From Candidatus Neomarinimicrobiota bacterium (GTDB taxonomy: Bacteria > Fidelibacterota > Marinisomatia > Marinisomatales > S15-B10): a DNA stretch of 46,379 bases. A model generated the notes under the pieces. The model searched no databases. It worked only from the letters and a program-made list of their open reading frames with translations, and was not told where the DNA came from. The position numbers and the translations under genes are program-made. Below are positions 28,419 to 32,235 of this stretch, piece after piece. The stretch lies in assembly GCA_012964825.1 (NCBI GenBank), contig DTTI01000040.1, positions 1 through 46,379 on the forward strand, in the 5' to 3' direction. The stretch's first letter is position 1. Every line of letters starts with the position of its first letter.

Positions 28419-29340
28419 ACCTTCCAATAACCGAGTCTTGACCCTTGTGGGTCCTACGGCTGTGGGGAAGACAGCTGTAGCCGTTGAATTGGCACGCCGG
28501 CTCGACGGTGAAATTATCGGTCTCGATTCGCGGCAGATTTACAAGTATATGGCTGTCGGTACTGTTCAGCCCACCGATGAAGAGAAGGTCCATGTCCGTC
28601 ATCATCTCATTGGAGATAGAGACCCATCAGAGCAGATCTCCGCCGGTGAATACGTTGGGCTGGTAGAGGTAGCCATAGATGATGTGAAAAGTCGCAGCAA
28701 AGTCCCCATCGTTTGTGGTGGTAGTGGTCTCTATTTCAGGGCGGTGACACGGGGTCTTTTTGATGAATCCACCAGCGATCCTAAAGTGCGGGCAGCGCTT
28801 AAGGAACGATTGGAGAATGAAGGGTCTGATACGATGTTGGCCGAGCTTAAAGTTCTCGACCAGGAGTACGGCGAGATCGTTCATCCCAACAACCACAAGC
28901 GGCTTATAAGGGCTTTGGAGATTATCCAAATTACCGGCAAGCCGCCCACAGAACATTTTCGTCATCAGGCTGAAAGTGATTCCCATGACCGATTCTTCAC
29001 CGTTTTTCTGAGAATGGATATTGAAGAGCTGACGCCGCGGATTGAGAGAAGGACAAAAATGACGTTTGAAAACGGATGGATCGATGAAGTGAAAAAACTC
29101 TTGGATCTCGGATTCGACCGGTCCAGTCACCCCATGGACAGCCTCGGTTACCGGGACATTCTGAAATACCTGGATGGAGAGATGGATTTTGAAGAGATGG
29201 TTGAAAGGATAAAAATCGATACGCGCCAGTACGCCCGGAAACAGTTGAAATGGTTTGACAAGGAAAGAATCGATTGTGTGCTGGAAGTTGCGGGAATGAG
29301 TGAAATGGGCGTGGCTGAGAAAGTTATTAATCAATTTTGA
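28387..29340 (+). CDS. miaA: tRNA dimethylallyltransferase
   Basis: Adds a dimethylallyl group to A37 of tRNAs reading UNN codons. From ATG 28387 the product is 317 residues with the P-loop GPTAVGKT (22-29), DSRQIYKYMAVGT, and the C-terminal YGEIVHPNNHKRLIRALE and QYARKQLKWF. The start lies inside the end of mutL; TTG 28405 is an alternative. The order mutL-miaA is widespread. Its stop is followed by the PyrR leader. Confidence 0.92.
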   Translation: MNSTGALSVPEPSNNRVLTLVGPTAVGKTAVAVELARRLDGEIIGLDSRQIYKYMAVGTVQPTDEEKVHVRHHLIGDRDPSEQISAGEYVGLVEVAIDDVKSRSKVPIVCGGSGLYFRAVTRGLFDESTSDPKVRAALKERLENEGSDTMLAELKVLDQEYGEIVHPNNHKRLIRALEIIQITGKPPTEHFRHQAESDSHDRFFTVFLRMDIEELTPRIERRTKMTFENGWIDEVKKLLDLGFDRSSHPMDSLGYRDILKYLDGEMDFEEMVERIKIDTRQYARKQLKWFDKERIDCVLEVAGMSEMGVAEKVINQF

Positions 29341-29377
29341 AGTTGGTTTAATGGTATCTTAAATTCCTGGCGATCGA

Positions 29378-29413
29378 AGCCCTTTAAACCATCCCCGAGA
29401 GGAGGTAAGGGCT
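29378..29413 (+). promoter_or_regulatory. PyrR-binding RNA hairpin (anti-antiterminator)
   Basis: In the transcript upstream of pyrR, AGCCC (29378-29382) pairs with GGGCT (29409-29413). Inside this, ACC (29388-29390) pairs with GGT (29404-29406) and TCC (29392-29394) with GGA (29401-29403), closing a CCGAGA hexaloop. The segment CCCGAGAGG matches the CCNGNGAGG core of known PyrR-binding loops, and an internal bulge is present as in that family. Binding by PyrR plus UMP would stabilise this hairpin and free the terminator downstream. Confidence 0.8.
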
Positions 29414-29436
29414 AAAAAGAAGTCCTCCTCACTCGG
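29395..29436 (+). promoter_or_regulatory. Alternative antiterminator pairing in the pyr leader
   Basis: CCGAGAGGAGG at 29395-29405 can pair with CCTCCT (29424-29429) plus CTCGG (29432-29436), 11 base pairs with a two-base CA bulge. This pairing is incompatible both with the PyrR hairpin and with the terminator stem, as expected of an antiterminator. Confidence 0.75.
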
Positions 29437-29447
29437 GAGGATTTTTT
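29421..29447 (+). terminator. Regulated intrinsic terminator before pyrR
   Basis: TCCTCC (29423-29428) pairs with GGAGGA (29436-29441) across a seven-base loop, followed immediately by six Ts (29442-29447). Weaker pairing extends the base of the stem. It sits 13 bases before the pyrR start codon and shares its 5' arm with the antiterminator, so it is a control switch and may also end miaA transcription. Confidence 0.8.
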
Positions 29448-29460
29448 GTATCAAGAGGTG

Positions 29461-30003
29461 ATGACGGAGAAACGAAAACAGCTCCTTGATAAGAGCGAAA
29501 TAGAACGGTCGCTCACACGTCTCGCTCATGAATTGACCGAGCGGCTACCTTTTATTGATGATATTGTTCTCATAGGCATCCGTACCCGTGGTGAATTCAT
29601 CACCACTCGGCTCGCTAAAGCTCTCAAGAAGATATCCGGCAACGATGTACCGACAGGATTCCTGGACGTCACTTTCTACAGGGATGATTTCCGCGAACGG
29701 CTCATTCAGCCTCAGGTGAAGGGGACGGAGATCTCTTTTTCACTGGACGGTAAGATGGTAATCCTCACAGATGACGTGCTCTTCACCGGAAGAACAATCA
29801 GGGCTGCACTGGATGAAATTATGGACTTTGGCAGGCCAGCAGCTGTGGCTCTAGCTGTTCTGGTGGATCGGGGGCACCGGGAGATGCCTATTAAGGCTGA
29901 TTTTGTGGGCAAGAATATTCCCACCTCTGATACAGAACATGTGCTGGTGCGACTGAAGGAAGTGGACGGCGAAGATGCGGTTTATCTGGTGAAATACGAT
30001 TAA
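29461..30003 (+). CDS. pyrR: Bifunctional pyr operon attenuation protein / uracil phosphoribosyltransferase
   Basis: Binds the pyr leader RNA when UMP/UTP is high and causes termination; many members also convert uracil and PRPP to UMP. From ATG 29461 the product is 180 residues, the usual size. It shows VLIGIRTRGEFITTRLA, DVTFYRDDF and the PRPP loop VILTDDVLFTGRT at about 100-112. A TTG at 29446 lies in the terminator T-tract and is unlikely. First gene of pyrR-pyrB-pyrC, directly after its own attenuator. Confidence 0.95.
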   Translation: MTEKRKQLLDKSEIERSLTRLAHELTERLPFIDDIVLIGIRTRGEFITTRLAKALKKISGNDVPTGFLDVTFYRDDFRERLIQPQVKGTEISFSLDGKMVILTDDVLFTGRTIRAALDEIMDFGRPAAVALAVLVDRGHREMPIKADFVGKNIPTSDTEHVLVRLKEVDGEDAVYLVKYD

Positions 30004-30016
30004 GCAACAGTGAGCC

Positions 30017-30943
30017 ATGGGATTCCTGAGTAACAGACATCTTCTCGGCCTGGCGGGAATGCCAAAGGAAGATATGGAGCTGATTTTTCAGCATGCTTCT
30101 TCTTTCAGAGAGGTGCTTGATCGTCCCATCAAGAAAGTGCCCACACTCCAGGGGAAGACCATCGTTAACCTCTTCTTCGAAGATTCCACTCGGACTCGAA
30201 TCTCCTTCGAGCTGGCACAAAAGAGACTCTCTGCGGACACGGTTAATTTCTCGGCCAGCATCAGCAGTCTCGAGAAAGGTGAAAGTTTTAAGGATACGGC
30301 ACAGAATATTGAAGCCATGAAGATTGATTGTATTGTTATGCGCCACCCCGTGCCCGGTGCGCATATGCACCTTATCAACTATGTGAATTCTGTTGTGGTA
30401 AATGCCGGCGATGGTACCCACGAACACCCCACACAGGGGCTCCTGGATATGATGAGTCTTCTGGAGGCGAAGGGAAAGCTGGACGGTCTGAAGGTGGCCA
30501 TTATCGGTGATATCACACACAGCCGTGTGGCGCGATCCAATATTCACGGTCTTGTGAAGATGGGTGTCCAGGTGACGCTTTGTGGACCTCCCAACCTTAT
30601 GCCGGTGAACATTGAGGAGTTGGGTGTTGCGGTCAATTATGACGTTGATGAAGTATTGGAGTGGGCGGATGCCGTAAACGTCCTGAGAATTCAGCGGGAG
30701 CGACAGGGGGTCAGTTATATTCCATCTGTTAGGGAGTACAGGGAATTGTTTGGTATAACGCGAGAACGGGTTGAGCGGCTGAAAAAACAGATCACAATAA
30801 TGCATCCGGGACCCATGAATCGGGGTGTTGAAATTGACAGTGATGTGGCCGACAGCGAGAACGCCATCATCCTGGATCAGGTGCTTAACGGCGTCGCTAT
30901 TAGGATGGCGGTACTTTACCTTTTGTTGGGAGATCAACCATAG
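30017..30943 (+). CDS. pyrB: Aspartate carbamoyltransferase catalytic subunit
   Basis: Condenses carbamoyl phosphate and aspartate, the committed step of pyrimidine synthesis. The 308 residues carry the carbamoyl-phosphate motif FFEDSTRTRISFE (STRTR at 57-61), the HPVPGA loop and the DGTHEHPTQGLLD motif. No pyrI follows, so allosteric control by PyrI is unlikely from this locus. Fourteen bases separate it from pyrR, five from pyrC. Confidence 0.96.
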   Translation: MGFLSNRHLLGLAGMPKEDMELIFQHASSFREVLDRPIKKVPTLQGKTIVNLFFEDSTRTRISFELAQKRLSADTVNFSASISSLEKGESFKDTAQNIEAMKIDCIVMRHPVPGAHMHLINYVNSVVVNAGDGTHEHPTQGLLDMMSLLEAKGKLDGLKVAIIGDITHSRVARSNIHGLVKMGVQVTLCGPPNLMPVNIEELGVAVNYDVDEVLEWADAVNVLRIQRERQGVSYIPSVREYRELFGITRERVERLKKQITIMHPGPMNRGVEIDSDVADSENAIILDQVLNGVAIRMAVLYLLLGDQP

Positions 30944-30948
30944 GAATC

Positions 30949-32235
30949 ATGAACGATAAAGCATTGCCTAAAAAATTCCTCATTAAGAATGGTGATATCA
31001 TCGATCCCATCAAAGGGGAACGTTTCATCGGCTCCATCCTCATCAACAGCGGCCGTATAAAAAAAGTGGGGAAGCGAATATCAGCCAAAGGTGCCACAGT
31101 TTATGATGCAGGTGGGAAGGTGGTGACACACGGCTTCTGCGACATCCACGTTCATTTTCGTGAACCTGGAAGGGAGGATAAGGAGACACTTGCCACAGGT
31201 GCCGAAGCCGCCATTGCCGGTGGTTTTACCCAGGTATGTGCAATGCCAAATACGGAGCCGCCCTTGGACTCTCCTGAATCGATCCGCTTTATTGTGGAAA
31301 AAGCGGCGGAGCTTCCCGTAAAAATTCATCCTATCGGTGCCATTTCGGTGGGACTGAAAGGGAAAGAGTTGACGGAACTGAGCGCCATGGTGCAGGAAGG
31401 AGCGGTGGCGTTCTCCGATGATGGTATACCTGTCATGGACAGCGGTGTTATGCGAAGAGTGCTGGAATACGCCAGGCCCCTGGGCATGCCGGTTATCAAT
31501 CACGCCGAGGATCTAACACTGAAACTGGACGGACAGATGCACGAAGGGTCTTGGTCTACCCGATTGGGATTGGCAGGTATTCCTGATGTAAGTGAATCGA
31601 TCATGGTGAACCGTGATCTGGAACTGACAGCCATGACAAGAGGACAGCTCCATGTGCCGCACGTCAGCTCAGCCAAATCGGTAGAGTGGATCCGTGGCGC
31701 AAAGGTCGGGGGACTGGCCATCACAGCTGAAGTGACACCCCATCACCTCTTTTTTACTGATAAAGATCTTCACTCTTTTGACACGAATTACAAGGTGGCG
31801 CCCCCCATCCGGACGGAAGATGACAGACAGGCACTCATGAGTGCCGTAAAAGATGGTACCATCGACTGCATTGCCACCGACCATGCTCCTCACACCGTTG
31901 AGGAAAAAGAGGCTCCGTTTGACTGGGCACCGTGTGGCATGATAGGTCTTGAGAGTGCCTTTGGCGCCGTCTGGAAAGTGCTCAGTGGATTGGGCATGGA
32001 TCTGGAGAAGGTGATCCAGTGTCTTACGATTAATCCCCGGCTTGTAATGAATTTTGAAAAAGATCTTTTCTCAGCCGGCACCGAGGCTGAGCTCACGATC
32101 ATTGATCCTGATGAAGAGTGGACTTTTGCCAAAGAGCACATCCACTCCAAGTCCCGAAACACACCTTTTGTAGGAGAATCCCTAAAAGGGTGCATAAAAG
32201 CGACCATAACCGGCGGAAAGCTTTTCGAACTTTAA
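30949..32235 (+). CDS. pyrC: Dihydroorotase
   Basis: Cyclises carbamoyl aspartate to dihydroorotate. The 428-residue amidohydrolase is the long type I form: zinc ligands His67 and His69 (DIHVHFREPG), MPNTEPPLDS, His185 (INHAED), and Asp311 in ATDHAPH. In this context it is an active PyrC rather than an inactive PyrC' partner, because the metal ligands are present. Ends the pyr unit. Confidence 0.95.
   Translation: MNDKALPKKFLIKNGDIIDPIKGERFIGSILINSGRIKKVGKRISAKGATVYDAGGKVVTHGFCDIHVHFREPGREDKETLATGAEAAIAGGFTQVCAMPNTEPPLDSPESIRFIVEKAAELPVKIHPIGAISVGLKGKELTELSAMVQEGAVAFSDDGIPVMDSGVMRRVLEYARPLGMPVINHAEDLTLKLDGQMHEGSWSTRLGLAGIPDVSESIMVNRDLELTAMTRGQLHVPHVSSAKSVEWIRGAKVGGLAITAEVTPHHLFFTDKDLHSFDTNYKVAPPIRTEDDRQALMSAVKDGTIDCIATDHAPHTVEEKEAPFDWAPCGMIGLESAFGAVWKVLSGLGMDLEKVIQCLTINPRLVMNFEKDLFSAGTEAELTIIDPDEEWTFAKEHIHSKSRNTPFVGESLKGCIKATITGGKLFEL

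Follow-up and report, generated by a model that had tools for sequence, protein, structure and literature searches.

A predicted PyrR-dependent transcription attenuator heading pyrRBC in Marinimicrobia

The mechanism of PyrR attenuation has been described for the pyr operon of Bacillus subtilis, in which a hairpin with a CNGNGA loop, an antiterminator and a terminator act together, and three such attenuators are distributed across the ten genes of the operon (PMC7430163). The PyrR motif has a moderate distribution over bacterial groups (PMC3766115); thus, its occurrence outside Firmicutes is not new in itself, and a sequence-only reading that had singled out a non-Firmicute PyrR attenuator was supported for Marinimicrobia without identifying a novelty on that count alone. 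The Rfam PyrR model (RF00515) also finds matches in a Thermus control genome, another non-Firmicute with a PyrR hairpin ahead of its pyr genes. In mycobacteria, a PyrR-binding hairpin ahead of pyrR reportedly blocks translation of this gene, and the mycobacterial leader is not known to have an attenuator terminator. The leader described here, which heads a pyrRBC operon in Marinimicrobia (SAR406), is very probably a PyrR-dependent transcription attenuator, with control of transcription by PyrR and UMP predicted.

The leader lies in a 46,379-nucleotide stretch of DNA (contig DTTI01000040.1, assembly GCA_012964825.1), hereafter the window. The closest named loci are those of UBA2125 and D37C9, with PyrR proteins 94% identical to that of the window. 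The features of the locus are as follows:

29337..29366, forward strand: putative promoter, TTGAAG-17-TAAATT(C)
29378..29413, forward strand: predicted PyrR-binding hairpin (anti-antiterminator)
29394..29437, forward strand: antiterminator, 29394-29413 with 29421-29437
29417..29447, forward strand: intrinsic terminator, core 29423-29429/29435-29441, six Ts at 29442-29447
29461..30003, forward strand: pyrR, bifunctional pyr regulator/uracil phosphoribosyltransferase (NF003549, 232.9 bits against a cut-off of 138)
30017..30943, forward strand: pyrB, aspartate carbamoyltransferase catalytic chain (NF002032, 398.4 bits against a cut-off of 263)
30949..32235, forward strand: pyrC, dihydroorotase (TIGR00857, 416.7 bits against a cut-off of 279)

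The proposed pyrR-pyrB-pyrC unit was thus borne out, with pyrR and pyrB exceeding their NCBIfam cut-offs and pyrC that of TIGR00857, and the three genes follow the attenuator in this order. The window PyrR aligns with solved Bacillus and Thermus PyrR proteins (PDB chains) and keeps their LTR.AHE...ER and DRGHRE..I(K)AD..GKN segments, with one Arg replaced by Lys. The LTR.AHE and DRGHRE.PI(R/K)AD..GKN segments carry the residues that B. subtilis mutants have linked to RNA binding. Both carB and the best pyrE-like match of the genome are located on other contigs. The sequence-only reading had also pointed to pyrH, 2.6 kb away; the distance is literally correct (34800), but pyrH sits after rpsB-tsf in a standard cluster, so its proximity is coincidental, uninformative on the leader, and was rejected as support.

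Three competing structures had been proposed within 70 bases of the leader, and all of them were recovered where they had been placed. The hairpin has a lower stem of 7 bp (29378-29384/29407-29413), a purine-rich 5' internal loop of unpaired UAA (29385-29387) at the position where RF00515 has its internal loop, and an upper stem of 6 bp (29388-29390/29404-29406 and 29392-29394/29401-29403) interrupted by a bulged A29391. Its hexaloop, CCGAGA (29395-29400), fits CNGNGA and is closed by the pair C29394-G29401; the predicted folding energy is -16.5 kcal/mol (z -2.8). The antiterminator pairs 29394-29399 with 29432-29437, 29402-29405 with 29427-29430, and 29408-29413 with 29421-29426, and it joins the PyrR loop itself to the terminator loop (CCCGAG with CUCGGG). 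An 11-bp version of this helix had been drawn (29395-29405 with 29424-29436); the helix is longer than this, with about 16 bp and internal loops over 29394-29437. Segment 29395-29436 has a folding z of -3.9, and the antiterminator is mutually exclusive with both the hairpin and the terminator. The 13-nucleotide spacing between the T tract and the pyrR ATG at 29461 also held, and this start codon lies outside both the hairpin and the antiterminator.

Folding of a growing transcript placed the hairpin alone up to position 29432, the antiterminator as the best predicted fold for transcripts ending at 29435-29438 (-24.4 versus -16.5 kcal/mol for the hairpin at a transcript end of 29438), and the hairpin together with the terminator from 29441 onward. 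This is the order needed for a PyrR attenuator: the antiterminator has a short chance to form without PyrR, whereas bound PyrR would keep the hairpin in place and let the terminator form. Transcription would start some 10 nt ahead of the hairpin, and the hairpin would be the first element to fold. For the steps that follow, binding by PyrR, the effect of UMP and termination are inferred from B. subtilis. With PyrR unbound, the antiterminator would win as RNA polymerase reaches 29435-29438 and would sequester the 5' arm of the terminator, allowing transcription of pyrRBC. At high UMP/UTP, PyrR-UMP would hold the hairpin, no antiterminator would form, and the terminator would stop transcription near 29447; the UMP dependence of the leader is thus a prediction from homology.

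In its overall plan, the leader resembles the attenuators of B. subtilis and Bacillus caldolyticus represented by RF00515, with a CNGNGA hairpin, a purine-rich 5' internal loop, an overlapping antiterminator, an intrinsic terminator and pyrR as the first gene. Unlike these, the window leader is compact, with no additional stem between hairpin and terminator; moreover, it is single and would govern pyrRBC only, unlike the arrangement in B. subtilis. The 3' arm of the upper stem is one base shorter than in the RF00515 consensus, leaving the one-base bulge. Marinimicrobia belong to a different phylum from Thermus, and their antiterminators are lineage-specific. The PyrR-binding hairpin ahead of pyrR is shared with the mycobacterial leader. 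Control of the mycobacterial type would have the hairpin sequester the ribosome-binding region; in the window leader, a terminator and an antiterminator are present, and the region of the start codon is outside both alternative structures.

The putative promoter was read from the sequence and is retained in the leaders L001 and L002. It consists of TAAATTC at 29360-29366 with TTGAAG 17 nt upstream; a sigma-70 scan did not list it. Among 136 leaders, TAnnTTY boxes cluster 20-24 nt 5' of the hairpin, far above other distances (61 matches in this bin). With the box of the window in this position, the 5' end of the RNA is probably some 10 nt ahead of the hairpin. The miaA stop codon (29338-29340) falls within the putative -35 element (29337-29342), and the miaA and pyrRBC units therefore abut.

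Covariance-model searches located the same element. RF00515 gave the top match of a permissive scan at 29377-29451, exactly at the leader, with 35.3 bits (E 0.0014). This model has a gathering score of 54 bits; thus, scans at the gathering threshold returned no PyrR match at the site, and the window element is no formal RF00515 hit but only a member of the mechanistic class. This score was reached in none of 245 Marinimicrobia genomes. Other Rfam matches at the site (mir-133, BSnc120, Phe leader) were far under their own cut-offs and implausible. A second RF00515 match in one relative (G016, C1:292037) proved to be an ordinary terminator behind an hsp20-like gene, and weak RF00515 matches away from pyrR should accordingly be distrusted. 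A model built from unbulged hairpins only (R1), and hence without the structural class of the window, scored the leader site at 28.2 bits (E 4e-5), with the next match in the window at 11.9 bits. R1 sites were detected in 102 of the 245 genomes, nearly all directly 5' of pyrR and nearly always single. A bulged-class model (R2) gave 54.2 bits at the leader site and 15.4 bits at the next best site in the genome; because a congener is among its training sequences, the gap is informative and the score itself is not. This gap indicates one convincing copy, and the R2 search found no second in the window's genome, in agreement with the single attenuator claimed before pyrRBC. Two genomes list two pyrR genes each, G042 (C48:27368-27892 and C205:9538-10047) and G184 (C1:2081564 and C1:2481191); both copies in G042 are preceded by a PyrR hairpin of their own.

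Across the phylum, pyrR is present in 151 of the 245 genomes; in the small-genome family f15 (0.4-1.0 Mb), no member listed carries it. Conservation was assessed on 180 distinct pyrR leaders, mostly from Marinimicrobia, the rest mainly from Ignavibacteria with some from Actinobacteria, Chloroflexi and others. The hairpin pattern occurs in 137 of these, against a mean of 0.5 in dinucleotide shuffles. Because the search pattern fixes the lower stem, the CNGNGA loop and AAGG, conservation in these columns is partly by construction; both N positions and the upper stem are left free. In the free columns, 14 distinct hairpins of the bulged class contain 12 cells in which both sides have changed, and 24 hairpins of the unbulged class contain 38 compensatory cells; none of 500 shuffles reached as many in either class, although these statistics are inflated by the relatedness of the leaders. 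Variants of the hairpin also occur in several leaders that the strict pattern misses, and in some of these the lower stem is altered yet paired (e.g., CTCTT/AAGAG). Relatives with pyrR but no hairpin, which had been named beforehand as evidence against the attenuator, do not occur in the window's own and nearest families; in the deeper family f20, the canonical hairpin is missing. Leaders without it (L125, L141, L165, L175, L181, L184, L186, L190, L193, L196 and L200, mostly from f20) share a conserved promoter-like TTGTCCTGT...CTAACTTTG stretch, and several of them also contain CCTTGAAGTGAG; their CCTCC/GGAGG terminator is conserved as well. Where the hairpin is present, pyrB lies immediately 3' of pyrR in 135 of 137 cases.

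The comparison of relatives, which had been suggested as a check on all three helices, also supported the other two structures. In 12 of the 13 nearest leaders, a strong helix persists that joins the PyrR loop and its 3' arm to the 5' arm and loop of the terminator; in L008, for example, CCUGUGA pairs with UCACAGG. Across these 13 related leaders, pairing is on average stronger with a leader's own partner than with a swapped one (permutation p ~0.001), the own terminator not being the top partner in every case. Other members of the order are wired differently: their hairpin has GGGCAG at its 3' base, which can pair with CUGCC just 5' of the terminator 3' arm (52 of 137 leaders). Of 112 Marinimicrobia leaders, 97 have a terminator after the hairpin, compared with 5 of 112 after shuffling. 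Leaders in which the hairpin lies 30-50 nt from the start codon and the terminator is not recognisable come from genus g20 (L071, L093, L108, L124) and family f16 (L126, L128, L142, L144, L154, L159, L191); these may be under translational control.

Such clades lend some weight to the view that the window hairpin, too, blocks translation of pyrR instead of acting through transcription termination. For the window, this is very unlikely: a strong six-T terminator stands between the hairpin and the start codon, an antiterminator competes with it, and the ATG is left free by both the hairpin and the antiterminator. It is less probable still that the structures merely end the miaA unit as a constitutive terminator without any role for PyrR. 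The gene context would allow it, as miaA stops at 29340 and 84 of the 180 loci have this gene ahead of pyrR; however, the loop fits the PyrR target CNGNGA, the hairpin stems covary, and the antiterminator coevolves. Moreover, the hairpin accompanies pyrR even where miaA is not upstream (in Ignavibacteria and deeper families), which counts against a plain miaA terminator.

Regulation without PyrR, whether by direct nucleotide sensing (a riboswitch) or by a pyrBI-type attenuator with a leader peptide or UTP-dependent pausing, finds nothing in its favor except the location ahead of a pyr operon. The stretch between the inferred start and pyrR contains no leader reading frame, the conserved loop has the sequence targeted by PyrR (PMC7430163), and PyrR itself is the product of the first gene; this explanation is as improbable as a bare miaA terminator.

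Literature searches returned no report for Marinimicrobia or Ignavibacteria, which is weak evidence of novelty because most subscription journals were outside their coverage. As read from the sequences, what is added to the known distribution is a phylum-wide occurrence missed by the Rfam threshold, a bulged upper stem and lineage-specific antiterminators. A tentative reading, for which the case is nearly balanced, is that Marinimicrobia possess a distinct phylum-wide variant of PyrR control, with a bulged hairpin in many families and several lineage-specific wirings (loop-to-loop and GGGCAG/CUGCC); loss of the terminator together with a hairpin near the start codon in some clades would then suggest that control has shifted from transcription to translation within the phylum.

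With the predicted attenuator, the range of PyrR attenuation would include an uncultured marine phylum and, judging by sequence, Ignavibacteria as well. The Rfam threshold hides the element throughout Marinimicrobia. The single copy in the window's genome predicts that only pyrR, pyrB and pyrC would be under control of a PyrR hairpin. More broadly, the rewired attenuators of this phylum may offer a natural series for studying the evolution of such switches.
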